A DNA stretch of 46,173 bases from Planctomycetota bacterium (GTDB lineage: Bacteria; Planctomycetota; Phycisphaerae; WQYP01), in NCBI GenBank assembly GCA_021798635.1, contig JAJZGH010000003.1, positions 1 to 46,173 on the forward strand. Reading direction: 5' to 3'. Within the stretch, counting starts at the first letter, position 1. Each line of letters opens with the position of its first letter. Shown here piece by piece: positions 11,030 to 17,932 of this stretch. The position numbers were made by a program, and so were the translations under genes. Below the pieces are notes generated by a model. The model saw nothing but the letters and a program-made list of their open reading frames with translations, did no database searches and had not been told where the DNA came from.

Positions 11030-11434
11030 CCTTGGACCTCCGTTGGGATCGACTAGATCGGCACGATCGCGCCATCCGCGTCAGGCAATCAACCTGTCCC
11101 GAGGTTCTATGCCCTACGCAGATTCTACCGCTCCAAAAGCGGTACGCCAAGCAGTTTCCCGAATTCCCAAAACATGATTCCAATCAGCGCCAGGTGATGG
11201 AGTCCGTTAGCTCAATGCGGCAGCGTTGAGTTGGGCGCGGAATTACAATTTGATGGCACGACGCGTTTCGGCCCGTCGCGATTGGTACGCGCCTGCCGAA
11301 TTGCGGTGCGGATATTTTCCGTGACATTCCACCTCCAACCATGTTGTGTTATTGACACAATGTGGAAGGGGGCGCGTGGGACGAGGAGGGGTCTGGTCCC
11401 GCAATATCGGGTTTTTGCTTTGCGGCCTTACTGC
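11030..11434. other. Spacer between the recombinase and the porin island
   Basis: No gene is supported. It contains the palindrome at 11344-11360 and a weak hairpin CCCG-CAATAT-CGGG followed by TTTTT at about 11397-11415. Short open frames here lack ribosome binding sites and protein-like composition. Confidence 0.4.
11344..11360. promoter_or_regulatory. Perfect palindrome TTGTGT-N5-ACACAA
   Basis: Six-base arms around TATTG, the size of a dimeric-repressor operator, about 75 bp upstream of the porin promoter. An overlapping TTGACA (11352-11357) has no matching -10. The bound factor is unknown. Confidence 0.35.
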
Positions 11435-11463
11435 TTGACAGGATTTCCGAGCTCACATAACCT
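11435..11463 (+). promoter_or_regulatory. Promoter of the OprB porin gene
   Basis: Perfect TTGACA at 11435-11440, a 17-bp spacer, and TAACCT at 11458-11463. The same -35, spacing and -10 occur upstream of blaI (12775-12803), and both continue as TAACCTAA. The predicted start is near 11470, giving a leader of about 50 nt. Confidence 0.65.
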
Positions 11464-11489
11464 AAAGTTTTAAGCCTTGTTTAATAGGT
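11460..11489. promoter_or_regulatory. Candidate BlaI operator half-sites upstream of the porin
   Basis: ACCTA at 11460-11464 overlaps the -10 and is mirrored by TAGGT at 11485-11489, 20 bp away. The same half-sites lie in the blaI promoter with a 6-bp gap. BlaI/MecI dimers bind inverted repeats over promoters; this assignment is inference from shared sequence and position. Confidence 0.45.
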
Positions 11490-11521
11490 AATATAGCGAC
11501 CGGTTATTAAAGGAGATTTTC

Positions 11522-12763
11522 ATGCTTGCCCTCCCGGCCACGCCGCCACCGGTCCATGTTGTCTCCGCTCCCGATATCGCCGCGACTGCACCTGCACCGG
11601 TCGCGCCGGCGACATCAGCGTCTCCCACGGGATCCGGTGCCTATTCCAACACATTCACCGGCGACTGGTTCGGTCTGCGCACCGGACTGGCGGATCACGG
11701 CATTAGTTTCAACGGCTACGGGGTCAATGACAATAGTTGGAATCTTCGCGGCGGAAAAAGCACCCACAATTTTGTCTCCCGCGCCCGTCTGACGTTGGGG
11801 ATGAACCTGGACACGGACAAACTCTTCGGCTGGGCGGGTGGGACCGTGGTATCCAGCGTGCGTTTTCATTTTGGCCCGAACGGCAATGACATCCAATTGG
11901 GATCGCTGCAGGGATTTAGCTATATTGATGACAACCCGCCGACAACCCAATTATATGAATTGTATTTCAAGCAGACACTGCTGGGAGATAAACTGACCCT
12001 GCAGGCGGGACGGATGGACGCCAATAATATTTTTGATATTCCGGTGGACGCCACTGATTTCATCAATCCATCGGCATCCGATGCTCCGTTGACATTGCAA
12101 AACGCCCCACCCTCGCAGGCACCCGGCTTGGCGGCATTTGTCACGGCGATACCTGGAACCACCTTGATTCTCGGTGCATTTTTTAATGGTCGCTCCCATC
12201 CGACGGCTCTGGATGCGATGCTCAATACGCTCGCTACCATCGATGAACCCAATGGAACATCGCTGAATGTTGAATTGGATCATAATTATCATATCGCGGC
12301 CAATATGCCGGGAACGGTGGGAGTCGGGGCGTTCTGGCGCACCGGCCAATTGCCGACCCTCAATGGTGGCACACAATCCGGCACGGGCGGTGGCTGGGCT
12401 TTTATCGATCAAACATTATGGCAGACCGCGAAGGCGGATCATCGCGTGGCAGTCTGGGGAAACTTCACGGGTAATGACCCCCGCGTAAGCGAGATCGACT
12501 ATTCCATTCAAGCGGGCTTGCTGGGGGCTGGAATCATTCCTGACCGGCCCGAAGATAAAATCGCGGTGGGTCTTGATTGGGCGCATACAAGTTCGCATGC
12601 GCAACTGCCAAAGCCTTATGAGATGGCGACCGAGTGCTTCTACGAATATTACCTTGGCCAGGGCGTGACGGTTCAACCTGACGCGCAGTACTTCACCAAT
12701 ACGGGCGGCGGGATATATCCGGCCGCATTAATCGCGATGGTTCGAGTCAGCGTTAATTTTTGA
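11522..12763 (+). CDS. OprB-family carbohydrate-selective porin
   Basis: 413 residues. The start of the OprB fold is clear (TFTGDWFGLRTGLADHGISF), followed by alternating beta-strand patterns, an LQAGRMDANNIFD strand and a C-terminal aromatic Phe (VRVSVNF), as in outer-membrane barrels that admit sugars. AAAGGAG precedes the ATG at a good distance. Oddly, the N-terminus (MLALPATPPPVHVV, then Ala/Pro-rich) is not a recognisable signal peptide, and an in-frame TAA at 11489 limits any upstream extension. Either an upstream frameshift has removed the signal or the gene is non-functional as written. The promoter matches that of blaI, suggesting co-regulation with the M56/BlaI pair. Confidence 0.8.
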   Translation: MLALPATPPPVHVVSAPDIAATAPAPVAPATSASPTGSGAYSNTFTGDWFGLRTGLADHGISFNGYGVNDNSWNLRGGKSTHNFVSRARLTLGMNLDTDKLFGWAGGTVVSSVRFHFGPNGNDIQLGSLQGFSYIDDNPPTTQLYELYFKQTLLGDKLTLQAGRMDANNIFDIPVDATDFINPSASDAPLTLQNAPPSQAPGLAAFVTAIPGTTLILGAFFNGRSHPTALDAMLNTLATIDEPNGTSLNVELDHNYHIAANMPGTVGVGAFWRTGQLPTLNGGTQSGTGGGWAFIDQTLWQTAKADHRVAVWGNFTGNDPRVSEIDYSIQAGLLGAGIIPDRPEDKIAVGLDWAHTSSHAQLPKPYEMATECFYEYYLGQGVTVQPDAQYFTNTGGGIYPAALIAMVRVSVNF

Positions 12764-12774
12764 GCGAGGTGTTA

Positions 12775-12803
12775 TTGACATGGCGGAATTGTTTTGATAA
12801 CCT
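12775..12803 (+). promoter_or_regulatory. Promoter of the blaI-M56-toroid operon
   Basis: TTGACA at 12775-12780, 17 bp, TAACCT at 12798-12803, overlapping the end of the porin-blaI gap. It is the twin of the porin promoter at 11435. The inverted repeat over its -10 and start site would allow autoregulation. Confidence 0.65.
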
Positions 12804-12815
12804 AATTTTCTAGGT
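12800..12815. promoter_or_regulatory. Candidate BlaI operator over its own promoter
   Basis: Inverted repeat ACCTA-ATTTTC-TAGGT, eight bases before the blaI ATG and covering the predicted transcription start. The position is typical of autorepression by BlaI/MecI proteins. The binding assignment is inferred. Confidence 0.5.
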
Positions 12816-12822
12816 GATTAGT

Positions 12823-13227
12823 ATGGCAAATAGCGACGGTCCCACTGAGCGTGAGCTGGAAATCCTCAAAATCCTCTGGAATATGCGTCAAGCCACCGTG
12901 CGGCGCGTCTACGAATATATGCGTCAGCGCGAAGACATCGCCCAGAACACGGTCCAGACCTTTCTCCGAATGATGGAGGAAAAAGGGCTGGTCTCCCACA
13001 AACTGCAGGGCAGGGCTTTTGTCTATCGTCCGCTCTACAGCCGGGGCAAAGTGCTGGCGCGGTTTCTCAACCGGATATTTGACGGTGCGGTAGACCAACT
13101 GGTGCTCAATGCCGTGGAAATTGCGGGACTTTCAATTGAGGAAATTGAAGACCTGGAAAAGAAATTGCGGGCCGCCCGAAGTTCGCGGCAGGCTGATTCC
13201 GGATTGGATCAACGGGCGCCTTTATGA
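12823..13227 (+). CDS. BlaI/MecI-family transcriptional repressor
   Basis: 134 residues, the usual family size. The N-terminal winged helix is evident in TERELEILKILWNMRQATVRRVYEYMR and NTVQTFLRMMEEKGLV, and the C-terminal dimerisation helices end near residue 120. In beta-lactamase and mecA systems such repressors are inactivated by cleavage once a partner M56 membrane protease senses ligand. Here the M56 gene overlaps the repressor stop codon by four bases (ATGA), so they are translationally coupled. No beta-lactamase or PBP gene is nearby; the likely targets are the porin gene upstream and its own operon. The ATG at 12823 is chosen over a GTG nine bases earlier, which falls inside the operator. 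Confidence 0.92.
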   Translation: MANSDGPTERELEILKILWNMRQATVRRVYEYMRQREDIAQNTVQTFLRMMEEKGLVSHKLQGRAFVYRPLYSRGKVLARFLNRIFDGAVDQLVLNAVEIAGLSIEEIEDLEKKLRAARSSRQADSGLDQRAPL

Positions 13228-15236
13228 TTAGCTTTGACCTATGGCTTCTGGATAGCACCTTGATCGTCAGCATTGTGCTCGCGTCGGGCTTTGCAGCCAT
13301 GCTGATGCTCCGGAATCCGGCGCGACAGCAGCGGGTCGGTGAACTAGCCGTGATCGGGGCTTTGGCCGCCATGATGCTCACAGCGCTACCGGGGCTTCCG
13401 CACGTATTCCTGCGATGGTTGCCGGCTGCCGATACCGCCAAGTCTTCCCTTACCGTGGAAACCTTTCATATCGGGCTGACACCACAGAAAAACACCGGCC
13501 GCCGCAGTAATATAATACCGATTCTCCGCCGACCGCAGTTGCAGAATAAAAGAGGCTCGTTTTGGCGAAGCTGCCTGCACTGGTGGCCGGAATATATCAG
13601 CAGAGCCTATTTTCTCGGCGTGGTATTGATGGCTGGAAGGTTGGTTCTGGGCTGGCAACTGTTACGGAAAGCGTCCGCGAAAGCGACGCCTTTTTCCGCG
13701 GATTTTCATATCGAATCACTTGCTTCCGCCGGCCCGCTGCGCAGAAATCTAAAATCCACGGTCGTAAGGATATCCGAAGAGATACAAACACCCATGGCCT
13801 TTGGCATGTTACATCCGGTAATTTTACTGCCCAAAAGTTTTTGCGGCGCGGATGTGACCATGGTTCGCATGGCCTTGACGCATGAACTGACGCATATTGT
13901 CCGTGGTGACACCATCTGGCGGGTGATCCTTGCCTTAGCCGCGGTGCCGCTGTTTTTTCACCCCCTGCTGTGGATTCTTTCCCGCCGCATCCGACTGAAC
14001 CAGGAATTCTTAGCGGACCATTCAGCCGCAGCACTGGCCGAATCCCCCGCCACCTATATCACCGCCATGCTGCAACTGGCACGGGGAATAAAAAACCACC
14101 CCGATGCATTCTTTCCCGCCACGGCACTATTTGGCCGCCGATCCGACTTTTATTTGCGCATGAACCGTCTTCTGACGCAGGGTAATAGCACCACGGCGGA
14201 CTGCTCGGGGAGGTGGTACGTTGGGGCCGTTGCAGGAACGATGCTGATACTTATGCCGGCCTCCATGATCACATTGGCGTCGCCGGCAAAGTCCTTATCC
14301 ACCGCTAACGGTGCCCAGCCAAAGAGCGGCACGATTCATCAGGAGGCTCGCCAACTTGCGCGTAGCGGGTTGGCCTATTTGGGGCGACGACAAAACGCCA
14401 GCGGTGCGTGGCTGGGGCGCTATGGACCAGCAGTTACTGCGATGGTGGTGCGTGGATTTTTGGAGGCCGGCGTATCTGCGGGCAACATTCACGTTAAACG
14501 CGGCTTGCGGTTTATTGAAAGTAACCGCCGATCGGACGGGGGATTTTATAACAATGTCGAACCGGCGTACAACACCGCCATTGTCCTGCGTACGCTTTCC
14601 ATGCTGCCGGAACCCCGTTATCAAAGACAGGCACGCCGGGGCTTGGCGTTTTTGCATCAACAACTGCGGACATCCGTCGCAGATCCCGGCTCTGATGCAG
14701 CTTGGTATATGCACCGCTCGCTTTTCCGGTTGCAGGTGCCCGGCAACCGGTTCGCGCAGTCGGAAAAAACGGTTTCGCATCAGATCACCTCAGGCTTATG
14801 GATATCCGGCAAGATGCTGGATCCGCGGGAACGCGGTGCTGATGCGGTATTAAGACAATACGGCTCAATCACCTACGCCCAACTCAAGAGCATGATTTAC
14901 GCCGGTTTGCAGGCACGCGACCCGCGCGTGGTACATCTCTCTCATTGGATCTCCACCCACTATGCCTTGAATTACAATCCCGCAGAAAATGGTTCGCAGG
15001 GGTTATATTATTACTACGTGGTGTTCGCCAGGGTTTTGCGAGCCGCCGGCCGGGAACGCGTTATAGATGCGGATGGCGTAAGCCATAACTGGCGGCGCGA
15101 TCTGGTAGTGGCCTTGGCCGGGCGTCGCCGCGCCAACGGCAGTTGGAAAAATGGCACCGGCAGCGCCTGGCTGGAGGGTAACCCGGTGATGGCGACAACC
15201 TACGCGGTTTTATCGCTGGATCAGGTGACGCGATAA
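13224..15236 (+). CDS. M56 (BlaR1/MecR1-like) membrane metalloprotease fused to an alpha/alpha-toroid (prenyltransferase/squalene-cyclase-repeat) domain
   Basis: 670 residues. The N-terminal half is an M56 peptidase: hydrophobic segments near the start, at about 40-58, 125-147 and 230-250, the zinc motif HELTH at 220-224 and a third-ligand candidate Glu261 in QEFLADH. A further membrane segment lies at about 333-355. Residues from about 375 to 670 form a repeat domain with QW-like motifs (NASGAW, SDGGFY, ANGSWKN) where BlaR1 carries a penicillin-binding sensor. This domain is closely similar to the entire mature protein encoded next (for example YGSITYAQLKSMIYAGL against YGSMTYSGLKSMVYCGL). 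By topology it would face the periplasm and act as sensor, with the protease acting on the BlaI repressor. The squalene-cyclase DxDD acid motif is not visible. The ligand is unknown. Confidence 0.88.
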   Translation: MISFDLWLLDSTLIVSIVLASGFAAMLMLRNPARQQRVGELAVIGALAAMMLTALPGLPHVFLRWLPAADTAKSSLTVETFHIGLTPQKNTGRRSNIIPILRRPQLQNKRGSFWRSCLHWWPEYISRAYFLGVVLMAGRLVLGWQLLRKASAKATPFSADFHIESLASAGPLRRNLKSTVVRISEEIQTPMAFGMLHPVILLPKSFCGADVTMVRMALTHELTHIVRGDTIWRVILALAAVPLFFHPLLWILSRRIRLNQEFLADHSAAALAESPATYITAMLQLARGIKNHPDAFFPATALFGRRSDFYLRMNRLLTQGNSTTADCSGRWYVGAVAGTMLILMPASMITLASPAKSLSTANGAQPKSGTIHQEARQLARSGLAYLGRRQNASGAWLGRYGPAVTAMVVRGFLEAGVSAGNIHVKRGLRFIESNRRSDGGFYNNVEPAYNTAIVLRTLSMLPEPRYQRQARRGLAFLHQQLRTSVADPGSDAAWYMHRSLFRLQVPGNRFAQSEKTVSHQITSGLWISGKMLDPRERGADAVLRQYGSITYAQLKSMIYAGLQARDPRVVHLSHWISTHYALNYNPAENGSQGLYYYYVVFARVLRAAGRERVIDADGVSHNWRRDLVVALAGRRRANGSWKNGTGSAWLEGNPVMATTYAVLSLDQVTR

Positions 15237-15276
15237 TTGTTGAATACGAGCACCGCTTTTTTTAAGGAGTTTTACA

Positions 15277-16428
15277 ATGCAAAACGGCAAACTTATGACG
15301 GCCTTCCTATGCACATTGTTTTTGGGCATTGCGTCTCCCATTTTCGCCGCTGCCAAGCCTTTTTATAAAACGGATGCGGTTTTGGGGAAAGGCTTGAAAT
15401 ATCTGATGGCGACGCAAGCCCCCAATGGCGGTTGGGTGACGCAGGTCGGCCCCGCCGTCACGGCGCTGGCGGTCAAGGCGATGGTAGGCGCGGGCATTCC
15501 GGCAAGCAATCCTGTGATCGTTAAGGCGATGAGGTTTATCGAAACCACCCGCGAACCGGATGGGGGCTTTTACGTTCATGACCTTCTGCAGAATTATAAT
15601 ACATCCATTGTCCTTTCCACATTGACGATTCTACCGCGTCAGAAATATGCCGCCCAGATTAAAGCCGCACAACATTACCTCATGTCTCTTCAGCATCGAG
15701 CCGGGCAAAGAAACGCCGCCGGAAAGTTAGTTACCCGCAACAGCAGTTGGTATGGAGGCACCGGCTATTATCAGGACCGGCCCGATCTTTCCAACACCTC
15801 TTTCTTCATTCAAGCGCTGCACGACAGCGGCGTACCCGCGAGCAACCCCGCGATGAAGGCGGCTCTGGTCTTCGTAACGCACTGTCAGGAAAACAGCGAA
15901 ACCAACTCCATGGCCTGGGCCAAGGGCACGCATAACGGCGGTTTTATCTATACTCCCGTAAATGGCGGCGGCGGCGATATGGGAGACCACGACACGCTAC
16001 GCGGGGCATCGCACGCCAAGGGTACGCTGAACAGTCAGTGGACAGCCTACGGCAGCATGACCTATTCCGGCCTGAAGAGCATGGTATATTGCGGGTTAAC
16101 GCCCAAGGACCCGCGCGTCATTGCCGCGGTCAAGTGGATACGCGCCAACTGGACATTGAATTCCAACCCCGGCACGGGCGGCAGCCGGATGGGGCTGTTT
16201 TATTATTACCTGATGTTCGCACGGGCACTTCACGCCCTGCATATTAAAACCATTACCGATGACAACGGCATTGTGCACAATTGGCGCTCGGAAATACGGA
16301 AAAAATTAAATTCCCTCCAGAATCCTAACGGATCGTGGAAGAATAAATGGAGCCCGCGCTGGCTGGAGTTCAGCGCTCCGCTTGTGACATCCTACGCCTG
16401 TCTGGTTTTGGACACCGTGGATCGATAA
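15277..16428 (+). CDS. Secreted alpha/alpha-toroid (prenyltransferase/squalene-cyclase-repeat) protein
   Basis: 383 residues with a clear signal peptide (cleavage near IFAAA, about residue 26). The mature part is made of toroid repeats: APNGGWVTQVGPAVTALAVK, EPDGGFYVHDLLQNYN, NGGFIYTPVNGGGGD and NPNGSWKNKWSP. The DxDD and other terpene-cyclase acid motifs are not visible, so enzymatic cyclisation is unlikely. It is the free-standing relative of the sensor domain of the M56 protein just upstream, but has an extra segment around NSETNSMAWAKGTHNGGF that the fused copy lacks. AAGGAG precedes the ATG; the gap to the M56 gene is 40 bp, so they share an operon. It could bind the same ligand in the periplasm, titrate it, or be the object sensed; this is inference. 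Confidence 0.85.
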   Translation: MQNGKLMTAFLCTLFLGIASPIFAAAKPFYKTDAVLGKGLKYLMATQAPNGGWVTQVGPAVTALAVKAMVGAGIPASNPVIVKAMRFIETTREPDGGFYVHDLLQNYNTSIVLSTLTILPRQKYAAQIKAAQHYLMSLQHRAGQRNAAGKLVTRNSSWYGGTGYYQDRPDLSNTSFFIQALHDSGVPASNPAMKAALVFVTHCQENSETNSMAWAKGTHNGGFIYTPVNGGGGDMGDHDTLRGASHAKGTLNSQWTAYGSMTYSGLKSMVYCGLTPKDPRVIAAVKWIRANWTLNSNPGTGGSRMGLFYYYLMFARALHALHIKTITDDNGIVHNWRSEIRKKLNSLQNPNGSWKNKWSPRWLEFSAPLVTSYACLVLDTVDR

Positions 16429-16482
16429 GGCAGCCCCTTCACGATACAGATTTTGCAGCGGCCCCCCGCATCAGGAGTTTTC

Positions 16483-17583
16483 ATGTCCATTTCACCACCA
16501 CGCCTGGCAATCGTCGGCGTGGGCAATTGCGCCAGTTCGTTGATTCAGGGCCTGACCTGGTATCGCCGGAGCGAATCCACCATCGGCCTGATGCACCCGC
16601 AAATCGCCGGGCTTTCCACAGGCGATATTACTTTGGCCTGTGCATTTGATGTGGATGAACGGAAAATCGGTAAGCCATTGGCTCAAGCCATTTTCGCCCC
16701 CCCGAACAACGCTCGGGTGTTCTGCGCCGATCCGGAGGATCACGGCGCGCGCGTGTTTACCGGGCCAATCGGTGATGGCGTCGCCGATCATCTGCAGAGT
16801 TTTGATCCACAACATCGGGTCGCGGCCAGTTCTGATGCCGGCACCGCAACACTGGCGGACGTGATTAACGTTTTGCAGGAAACCCGCGCCAATGTGTTGG
16901 TAAATTATTTGCCCGTAGGTTCACAAAAAGCCTCGGAACTTTATGCCCAAGCCTGTCTGGATACGGGTATTGCCATGGTGAACTGCATACCCGCATTTAT
17001 CGCCAGCGACAGCCTTTGGGCCGCGCGCTTTACCAAAGCCAACATTCCCTTAATCGGCGATGATATTAAATCCCAGTTTGGCGCCACCATCGTTCATAGG
17101 CAACTCATGGCCCTGGCGGAAAGCCGCGGATTTACCATTGATTCAAGTTATCAATTAAATGTTGGCGGCAATACCGATTTTCTTAATATGCTTGAACGCA
17201 GCCGCCTGGGCAGCAAAAAAATCAGCAAAACGCAAGCCGTTAACAGCCAACTTAAAACCGCACTGGATCAGGAACATATTCATATCGGCCCCTCGGATTA
17301 CGTTCCATTTTTAGCTGATAACAAGGTCTGTTATATCCGGATGAATGTGCGCGGATTCGGCGGCCTGCCCATGGAACTGGACCTCAAGTTATCCGTTGAT
17401 GATTCCCCCAACAGTGCCGGCATTGTGGTGGACGCGGTACGTTGCGCCGCGTTGGCCTTGCATCGGAAGGCCGGCGGTCCGTTAGAGGAAGTTTCCGCCG
17501 CGCTCATGAAGCACCCGCCCGTGCAACGGCCCGATGCCCTGGCAGCGGCGGAAATGGATCAATGGATTGACGGCAAAAAGTAA
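16483..17583 (+). CDS. Inositol-3-phosphate synthase
   Basis: 366 residues, the short bacterial/archaeal form of myo-inositol-1-phosphate synthase, which makes inositol-3-phosphate from glucose-6-phosphate with bound NAD. Visible: the Rossmann start LAIVGVGNCASSLIQG, NYLPVGSQKASELYA, NCIPAFIASD, the conserved GDDIKSQFGATIVHR, YQLNVGGNTDFLNM, and KISKTQAV. The start at 16483 has AGGAG six bases upstream; the frame is open ten codons further back without a better start. Products feed inositol lipids or osmolytes. It follows the toroid gene by 54 bp on the same strand, so weak readthrough from the BlaI operon is possible. Confidence 0.92.
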   Translation: MSISPPRLAIVGVGNCASSLIQGLTWYRRSESTIGLMHPQIAGLSTGDITLACAFDVDERKIGKPLAQAIFAPPNNARVFCADPEDHGARVFTGPIGDGVADHLQSFDPQHRVAASSDAGTATLADVINVLQETRANVLVNYLPVGSQKASELYAQACLDTGIAMVNCIPAFIASDSLWAARFTKANIPLIGDDIKSQFGATIVHRQLMALAESRGFTIDSSYQLNVGGNTDFLNMLERSRLGSKKISKTQAVNSQLKTALDQEHIHIGPSDYVPFLADNKVCYIRMNVRGFGGLPMELDLKLSVDDSPNSAGIVVDAVRCAALALHRKAGGPLEEVSAALMKHPPVQRPDALAAAEMDQWIDGKK

Positions 17584-17619
17584 TGCGGGATTGCGCGCAT
17601 CCGGCGTCAATAAGGAACT

Positions 17620-17847
17620 TCACCGGCTGACCAGCAGAACGGGATGATCCAGTTGTTCCGCCGCGTATGCTATGCACGCTTGGATGTCCTCCGCCTCAAG
17701 ATCTGGATAATCGGCCAAGATTTCAGCTTCGGGCACTCTGGCGGCCAGCAGATCCAGCACATCCTTAACGCGGATGCGCATTGCCCGAATGCAGGGCCGC
17801 CCGCCGCATTGTCTGGGGTTGAATGTGATTCTATCGCTAAGTTTCAT
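17620..17847 (-). CDS. DUF433 family protein (antitoxin-like), orphan
   Basis: 75 residues, the usual DUF433 size. The start ITFNPRQCGGRPCIRAMRIRVKDVLDL is the family hallmark (winged helix), followed by LADYPDLEAEDIQACIAYAAE. DUF433 proteins are often paired with a downstream DUF5615 PIN-like toxin; none exists here, because the convergent inositol-phosphate synthase gene ends 36 bp away. It is therefore an orphan antitoxin or stand-alone regulator. The ATG at 17847 is preferred over in-frame ATGs at 17853 and 17880: a perfect TATAAT lies six bases upstream of it and would overlap or precede the others, pointing to a leaderless message. Confidence 0.85.
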   Translation of the reverse strand: MKLSDRITFNPRQCGGRPCIRAMRIRVKDVLDLLAARVPEAEILADYPDLEAEDIQACIAYAAEQLDHPVLLVSR

Positions 17848-17853
17848 GCCCAT

Positions 17854-17882
17854 ATTATATCGACCGGCTCGGTCTTTCACAA
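17854..17882 (-). promoter_or_regulatory. Promoter of the DUF433 gene (leaderless type)
   Basis: On the minus strand, TTGTGA at 17882-17877, a 17-bp spacer and a perfect TATAAT at 17859-17854. The ATG at 17847 begins six bases after the -10. It diverges from the ribF promoter. Confidence 0.65.
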
Positions 17883-17932
17883 ACCCGATTCCCTAAGTTC
17901 GATTTCCGATTGACCCTGCATTGTAAGGGACG

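Follow-up and report, generated by a model that had tools for sequence, protein, structure and literature searches.

The stretch of DNA analysed here (termed the window, to which all coordinates refer) comprises 46,173 nt of contig JAJZGH010000003.1 (assembly GCA_021798635.1), from an uncultured planctomycete, and rather probably encodes an induction system of the BlaR1/BlaI type whose sensor is new, being a trimmed copy of a secreted toroid protein encoded next to it, the probable effector. Gene expression is probably turned on when the receptor detects an extracellular compound, and this ligand is probably polar. The genes concerned are as follows:

11522..12763, + strand, OprB carbohydrate-selective porin gene, the first of the probable regulon (Pfam PF04966, E = 2.2e-40)
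12823..13227, + strand, blaI, BlaI/MecI-type repressor (PF03965, E = 1.1e-25; reading frame openable at GTG 12814)
13224..15236, + strand, M56 protease-toroid receptor, 670 aa (open reading frame list, Pfam, alignment, predicted structure)
15277..16428, + strand, free secreted toroid, 383 aa, 12-helix (alpha/alpha)6 (open reading frame list, Pfam, predicted structure)
16483..17583, + strand, inositol-1-phosphate synthase, INO1 (PF01658, E = 7.6e-35; reading frame from TTG 16453)

Checked against the open reading frames, this layout is as the sequence-only reading had described it: blaI overlaps the M56-toroid gene (by 4 bases) and the gene for a secreted free toroid follows. More likely than not, blaI starts with the ATG at 12823, because the predicted operator ends at 12815; for INO1 the ATG at 16483 is likelier than the TTG at 16453. 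The repressor belongs to the BlaI/MecI family by its Penicillinase_R domain (90.6 bits against a cut-off of 22.6).

The N-terminal half of the receptor is an M56 membrane protease (Peptidase_M56, PF05569, 83.4 bits against a cut-off of 31, E = 2.1e-23), in which three features are of particular concern:

13467..13475, + strand, codons of the HIG motif (H82-I83-G84), in the extracellular loop that joins TM2 to TM3
13881..13895, + strand, HELTH zinc motif, residues 220-224 (alignment)
14220..14276, + strand, TM4, residues 333-351, between protease and toroid (hydropathy; modelled helix 329-347)

Residues H220, E221, H224 and E261 (codon 14004-14006) are invariant in all 25 aligned fused proteins (alignment A1, which holds 25 of 29), as is D265. 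Residues 4-310 superpose on cryo-EM models of BlaR1, and the receptor shows the BlaR1 transmembrane-protease fold with its sensor past the last TM helix. Because this N-terminal half matches BlaR1 structures, the toroid is, by homology, outside the cytoplasm, which bears out the position that the sequence-only reading had given it; a cytoplasmic toroid is ruled out by the same homology together with the TM-like stretch that precedes the toroid. The HIG motif occurs in 41 of 44 fused rows (a number that includes near-duplicates, where a locus and its database protein were both counted) versus 0 of 19 other M56 proteins; one of the three rows without it, P0009, is missing the N-terminal loop. 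The two most divergent fusions, those of genomes G002 and G028, are devoid of HIG, of a free toroid neighbour and of an INO1 neighbour. In BlaR1 the loop equivalent to the HIG-bearing extracellular loop plugs the sensor pocket; confidence in the full-length receptor model is no more than moderate (pLDDT 72.7, pTM 0.46), with the HIG loop below 50. One reservation about placing the toroid outside is the unusually basic character of the loop termed EL1 (+8 over residues 61-118).

Beyond the last membrane helix, the receptor can be compared directly with the free protein, using the following features:

14325..15233, + strand, sensor toroid, residues 368-670 (a trimmed version of the free toroid, with about 10 long helices)
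14817..14834, + strand, receptor-specific LDPxER motif, residues 532-537 (alignment)
15778..15798, + strand, RPDLSNT block of the free toroid, residues 168-174 (alignment)

Over residues 365-670 the receptor matches SQHop_cyclase_C and a toroid fold, not a penicillin-binding sensor. SQHop_cyclase_C matches lie above the cut-off both on the M56 protein (residues 374-446, E = 7.7e-7) and on the free protein (3.7e-10), the fold being that of an (alpha/alpha)6 toroid; there is no transpeptidase domain among the receptor's Pfam matches up to E 0.1, and NCBIfam blaR1_generic scores 52.5 bits against a cut-off of 400. The N-terminus of the free toroid is hydrophobic (KD peak at residues 6-24, then 'AAA') and fits a signal peptide, as judged by eye and by hydropathy rather than by a dedicated predictor. 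Alignment shows that the receptor toroid is paralogous to the secreted toroid encoded beside it in the operon, but without the RPDLSNT block: DLSN is present in 49/49 free toroids versus 0/33 fused ones. (Two further proteins, L071 and L072, which are inside the alignment but outside the toroid tree and motif counts, do not show RPDLSNT either.) The invariant polar residues of the free toroid that the receptor has lost are R168, D170, S172, N173, N210 and Y225; most pocket-type invariants outside the lost block are retained, and D533, E536 and R537 of the LDPxER motif are found in all 35 receptor toroids.

The same comparison bears on the nature of the ligand. In sequence and fold, the toroids best match squalene-hopene cyclases and single-domain class II terpene cyclases, so that they might bind an isoprenoid or hydrophobic lipid, as such kin do, and the system might sense the membrane lipid or hopanoid state. 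DxDD is the catalytic motif of class II terpene cyclases. This motif (at about residue 265) is missing from all 33 fused toroids, the window's included, and occurs in 2 of 49 free toroids (P0053 and P0238, both outside the source's family); moreover, many of the invariant residues are polar. Both observations weaken the lipid interpretation, which we consider improbable. In one search, 2245 toroid relatives were found at E 0.001 or better; one source names many such relatives squalene-hopene cyclase, though DxDD is lacking in all but two of the 49 free toroids in the comparison.

The fused M56-toroid architecture recurs in at least 29 proteins among the 120 database matches listed (one being the window's own; P0006, with 448 aa and no M56 domain in its listing, is excluded from all fused counts), and in 15 of 28 genomes of the source's family. 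(An M56 fragment found at the end of a G003 contig was left out, and L004 and G025:C205, being the same contig, were counted once; four genomes that are 53-82% complete--G003, G008, G012 and G026--have neither a free toroid nor a full fusion.) Conservation of the fusion at 35-84% identity over many contigs excludes a sequencing or assembly artefact, which the sequence-only reading had named as one way of being wrong; co-occurrence with BlaI, the lack of which it had named as another, is seen in 15/15 receptor genomes, in each of which blaI adjoins the fused receptor. It also adjoins 19/19 of the other M56 proteins in family genomes (L089-L107), which carry other C-terminal domains. This last observation, together with the occurrence of toroids in alpha-2-macroglobulin and complement thioester domains, would fit a general envelope-stress switch in which the toroid senses a protein or the envelope state (e.g., peptidoglycan or a periplasmic protein). 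Against such a role, however, the receptor toroid mostly keeps its pocket-type invariants, suggesting a small ligand shared with the free toroid, and INO1 and the porin make the operon look metabolic, not geared to repair; we regard this explanation, too, as having little probability.

Of the 15 receptor genomes, only 6 have oprB immediately before blaI. The free toroid and INO1 form a pair in 20 of 23 genomes, nine of which have no receptor, and four of these nine show receptor-gene remnants. Other neighbours, by Pfam, are housekeeping or unrelated genes, apart from a porin encoded within the operon and, in locus L041, an MFS transporter gene that follows INO1. Because the INO1 pairing persists in receptor-less genomes, some with remnants, effector is a likelier role for the free toroid than decoy, and because G002 and G028 are without a neighbouring free toroid and INO1, it is not essential to the receptor. 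It might instead be a soluble, non-enzymatic co-receptor or decoy that binds the ligand or the HIG loop and so tunes the receptor, which is close to what the sequence-only reading had proposed. The two toroids are indeed paralogues within one operon, and HIG co-occurs with an adjacent free toroid, both being missing in G002 and G028; yet the free toroid is retained with INO1 in the receptor-less genomes and keeps an invariant polar block that the receptor has lost, as would an enzyme or a protein with a second binding function, which makes this an unlikely role. Thus of the earlier proposal--a signalling system with its own soluble receptor or decoy--the first part is supported, inasmuch as BlaI is encoded beside an M56 protease whose extracytoplasmic sensor position is taken by a toroid, with a predicted blaI operator and a probable small regulon, while the second has become less likely.

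Control by BlaI is suggested by a dyad at its own promoter and by a second, degenerate site:

12800..12815, + strand, predicted BlaI operator, ACCTAATTTTCTAGGT (conserved dyad just 5' of the blaI start)
11460..11475, + strand, degenerate operator copy, ACCTAAAGTTTTAAGC, 8/10 positions (upstream of oprB)

The palindrome ACCTA-N6-TAGGT precedes blaI in 15 of 16 receptor loci, with a variant at the sixteenth, and is found at 9/10 or more positions at 0 of the 19 blaI genes adjoining other M56 proteins; these comparisons show a dyad specific to the BlaI type of the toroid receptors and sited at the blaI promoter. A perfect copy lies 5' of one detached free-toroid gene, and copies also precede some oprB genes (9/10 sites in L059 and L060), two of seven oprB loci being without any site. 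No site at 9/10 or better precedes INO1 (0/10 loci) or the in-operon porin gene (0/3). Matches of 8/10 also arise without meaning, in L094 (1 of 19 controls) and, with poor palindromy, in L043; the oprB site of the window, itself an 8/10 match, is therefore weak. The evidence for the operator is the position of the sites; simple match counts provide none, the pattern totalling 16 rows versus about 60 for its reverse. A scan of the window allowing up to 2 mismatches gave 3 matches (two being both strands of one site) versus 0.84 expected, a number reached in 8 of 100 shuffles. A sigma-70 scan of 11200-17900 yielded 3 promoter-like matches versus 4.5 expected, none at blaI; a TTGACA-like box 5' of blaI was seen by eye only.

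These features suggest the following mechanism. BlaI would bind the dyad and repress both the porin gene and its own operon, through which the free toroid and INO1 would be repressed as well; control of INO1 would rest on co-transcription, because no operator precedes it. At rest, the extracellular loop would sit, via HIG, in or on a toroid. A polar ligand--probably one that the free toroid takes as substrate or forms as product, perhaps a glycan or an inositol or phosphate compound--would displace the loop, upon which the protease would cut BlaI and the operon would open. The free toroid would then act as effector (an enzyme or binding protein) for the compound sensed by its crippled copy. 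HIG could instead belong to the free toroid's binding, because G002 and G028 lack HIG, free toroid and INO1 together.

If the mechanism is right, the BlaR1 protease half and its repressor here serve an apparent metabolic or envelope circuit, with a sensor evolved from the circuit's own effector. The defined candidate operator, small regulon and three-residue loop motif make M56 transmembrane signalling testable outside the penicillin setting, and the system points towards a function for a large toroid family without an assigned role. BlaR1 offers a parallel: its sensor domain is class D beta-lactamase-like and guards a beta-lactamase gene, so that its regulon, too, encodes a sensor-related protein. 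More tentatively, the window may hold a second, independent case of this design rule, in which the sensor is a crippled secreted effector, HIG is a built-in pseudo-ligand that fills the space vacated by the RPDLSNT hairpin on its deletion, and what is sensed is the effector's own substrate, polar and envelope- or inositol-linked. Were this true, M56 receptors would be a swappable chassis in the Phycisphaerae, each type having its own BlaI operator.

Among enzymes of similar fold, MmpH methylmannose polysaccharide hydrolase (7qsj) and AprG transaldolase are 12-15% identical to the free toroid, the likeness to MmpH being one of fold only; for AprG a literature search found no paper. Judged by their titles and the openings of their abstracts, the publications found on planctomycete M56/BlaR1 proteins and on M56 combined with squalene-type domains do not describe the system; a search on planctomycete prenyltransferase or squalene oxidase repeat proteins gave no paper, and a broader one gave mostly work on BlaR1/MecR1. 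MmpH and BlaR1/MecR1 are covered by PMC9883506 and PMC9834060, respectively. Squalene-hopene cyclase and its single-domain relatives (2sqc, 8paj, 8pak) differ from the toroids here, which lack DxDD, are secreted or fused to a protease, and show 19% identity to them. The family's other M56 proteins (L089-L107) have the same protease half as the receptor and the adjoining blaI, but neither HIG nor an operator at 9/10 or better. To our knowledge, almost the only role known for BlaR1 is that of an antibiotic receptor. Like the window's system, BlaR1/BlaI and MecR1/MecI of Staphylococcus and Bacillus combine a BlaI-family gene with an overlapping or adjoining gene for an M56 zinc protease that bears a C-terminal sensor, and have a dyad at their own promoter, of the TACA/TGTA type as opposed to ACCTA-N6-TAGGT. 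They differ from it in their sensor, which is a penicillin-binding domain instead of a squalene-cyclase-type toroid; in the HIG loop motif, which is the window receptor's own; and in their regulon, which is a beta-lactamase in BlaR1 systems and here would be a porin, the free toroid and INO1.

The receptor gene of the window, which encodes an M56 protease with a C-terminal squalene-cyclase-type toroid (the fused toroid), lies among the following genes:

11522-12763, + strand: oprB, encoding an OprB carbohydrate-selective porin
12823-13227, + strand: blaI
13224-15236, + strand: M56-toroid gene (the receptor, or fusion)
15277-16428, + strand: free toroid, a secreted protein of the same domain
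16483-17583, + strand: INO1, encoding inositol-1-phosphate synthase

blaI overlaps the protease gene by 4 bases, and 40 bases separate the latter from the free-toroid gene. The OprB ORF begins (11522-11610) with an N-terminus that lacks a clear hydrophobic signal peptide, a Shine-Dalgarno-like stretch preceding its ATG; its start or frame may be wrong. The window is planctomycete DNA. G001 is the closest genome compared, sharing 84% of sampled 31-letter words with the window; the only match to a named locus was with a Planctomycetota MAG, and the fused relatives whose source gives an organism (P0014, P0023, P0025) are Phycisphaerae or Phycisphaerales.

The fusion is carried by 15 of the 28 genomes of G001's family (in G025 split across two contigs), always with blaI immediately upstream (15/15), and gene order is conserved while flanking genes vary between sub-groups. 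The free toroid follows immediately in 12 of the 14 genomes where the contig continues (the copy at locus L060 is cut by the contig end); the exceptions are G002 and G028, whose two fusions diverge most. In all 11 readable loci the following gene is INO1, counting three (L065, L066, L068) in which one porin gene intervenes; that of L066, the one tested with Pfam, is a phosphate-selective Porin_O_P. Among all 28 genomes, INO1 adjoins the free toroid in 20 of the 23 that have it, again counting the three with a porin between, the exceptions being G002, G011 and G028. A free-toroid relative in G002 is spread over two overlapping ORFs (L049 6426-7581), a frameshift or decayed gene, with INO1 elsewhere. 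Nine genomes (L040-L048) have the free toroid and INO1 without the receptor; in four of these, from the genus of G001, stretches of the receptor C-terminus (36-67% identity) stand right before the free toroid, and thus these genomes have lost the receptor while keeping the free toroid. Upstream, oprB immediately precedes blaI in 6 of the 15 genomes. G006 lacks oprB at this position, but its DNA before blaI (L062 5387-5500) ends, by eye, like the oprB 3' end of relatives, perhaps as a remnant of a lost oprB.

A search with an alignment of 25 fused proteins, at E 1e-70 or better, matched 25 of 397 class genomes: 20 from the family and 5 others, these 5 aligning from profile position 329 onward--that is, over the toroid part alone. 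At E 1e-90, G001 was the only match among 392 genomes across the phylum. With cut-offs this strict, and two or three candidates scored per genome, distant or independent fusions may exist.

In 15 of 16 loci (the window and G001, which are near-copies, among them) a 16-base dyad, ACCTA-N6-TAGGT (the putative operator), starts 14-47 bases upstream of the blaI ORF start, each matching 9 or 10 of the 10 consensus positions; the sixteenth, in G028, has ACTTAAGAGTTTAAGT with the same geometry. Of the 19 family blaI genes that adjoin a different M56 protein, none reaches 9 positions, and one reaches 8. Exact TAACCTA-N6-TAGGY occurs at 15 distinct sites across the 28 genomes. Fourteen of these precede genes of the receptor system (blaI, oprB or the free toroid), including one in G013 that stands ahead of a second, broken copy of blaI. 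There (L067 12237-13478), the blaI promoter and 5' part recur in truncated form and are followed by an unrelated ORF of 399 aa, as though an insertion had duplicated them. The sole exact match outside the system (G002 contig 62; L073 1501-1542) lies immediately upstream of a gene whose product looks, by eye, like an alpha/beta-hydrolase; the match is either chance or marks an additional regulon member. The site before oprB matches at 9 of 10 positions in L059 and L060 and at 8 in L057, L061 and the window. Two oprB loci remain: L058 (a short ORF near the contig start) has no site, and L069 runs off the contig. The free toroid of G011, on a separate contig, has its own perfect site; among the free toroids of receptor-less genomes, 0 of 9 have a site of 9 or more.

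An alignment of 35 fused toroids with free ones, 20 from the family and 29 others, indicates how receptor and free protein differ. RPDLSNT (free residues 168-174), Q204, N210 and GGFxY (221-225) are 97-100% conserved in both free groups; there the 35 fused toroids are mostly gaps, without consensus, and by motif search DLSN occurs in 49/49 free and 0/33 fused toroids. The receptor structure model consists of some ten long helices and has low confidence over residues 485-515, where this block is missing. The remaining conserved residues are largely common to both kinds (86-100% in each group): in fused/free numbering, W396/53, GP401-402/58-59, T405/62, Y449/107, Y551/263, K555/267, S556/268, Y596/309, W623/336, N643/356, E651/364 and Y660/373. 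L-D-P-x-E-R is a gain of the fused toroids, all 35 of which have D533, E536 and R537. From these alignments, the receptor's sensor toroid is a trimmed version of the free toroid, the probable effector. In an unrooted, quick tree of 82 toroids one branch (SH-aLRT 100) separates the 33 fused toroids from the rest, and another (SH-aLRT 99) sets off the 20 free toroids of the family; the placement of the fused toroids therefore points, as far as such a tree tells, to a single fusion event and subsequent vertical descent.

In the protease portion, the otherwise variable TM2-TM3 loop contains H-I-G (window H82-G84) in 41 of the 44 fused rows (near-duplicates, a locus and its database protein, included). 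The three without it are P0009, a truncated entry, and G002 and G028, in which the adjacent free toroid and INO1 are also missing. None of the family's 19 other M56 proteins, all with blaI beside them, has HIG. The same loop of BlaR1, EL1 (residues 56-96), occupies the penicillin groove until ligand displaces it, according to PMC9834060, which describes EL1 as modelled from AlphaFold2 and low-resolution density. A tripeptide fixed in this loop would fit a hypothetical built-in pseudo-ligand or a hypothetical site at which the free toroid docks.

Those 19 other M56 genes (L089-L107; 9 in G028), each with its adjoining blaI, have different C-terminal regions, which by eye include ankyrin, leucine-rich, carboxypeptidase-regulatory-like, secretin-like and Ig-like repeats; M56 seems to serve as an exchangeable chassis for receptors. 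Their operators apparently differ between M56 types: upstream of blaI in L095-L099 and L101 and in L103-L106, one set is TGCTAAAATTTTAGCA-like and another GATTACA-N2-TGTAATC-like, the latter being closest to the classical type. Distinct operators per M56 type, if true, would make these insulated channels.

On the most economical reading, the free toroid would act on a polar periplasmic compound or carry it, and the receptor would sense the same compound through a non-functional copy of the free toroid. INO1 and the porins would fit a role in sugar, inositol or phosphate chemistry; because INO1 is frequent across the class (78 of 150 genomes), it is solely adjacency that links inositol to the system. 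A terpene cyclase identity was rejected on motif grounds.

Receptor and repressor are members of the M56 and BlaI families. The sensor domain of the window receptor, when tested, set it apart from BlaR1-type beta-lactam sensors; the likeness to BlaR1/BlaI lies instead in a repressor, a membrane protease, a sensor outside and a small regulon, and by this analogy the pair would operate as BlaR1 and BlaI do.
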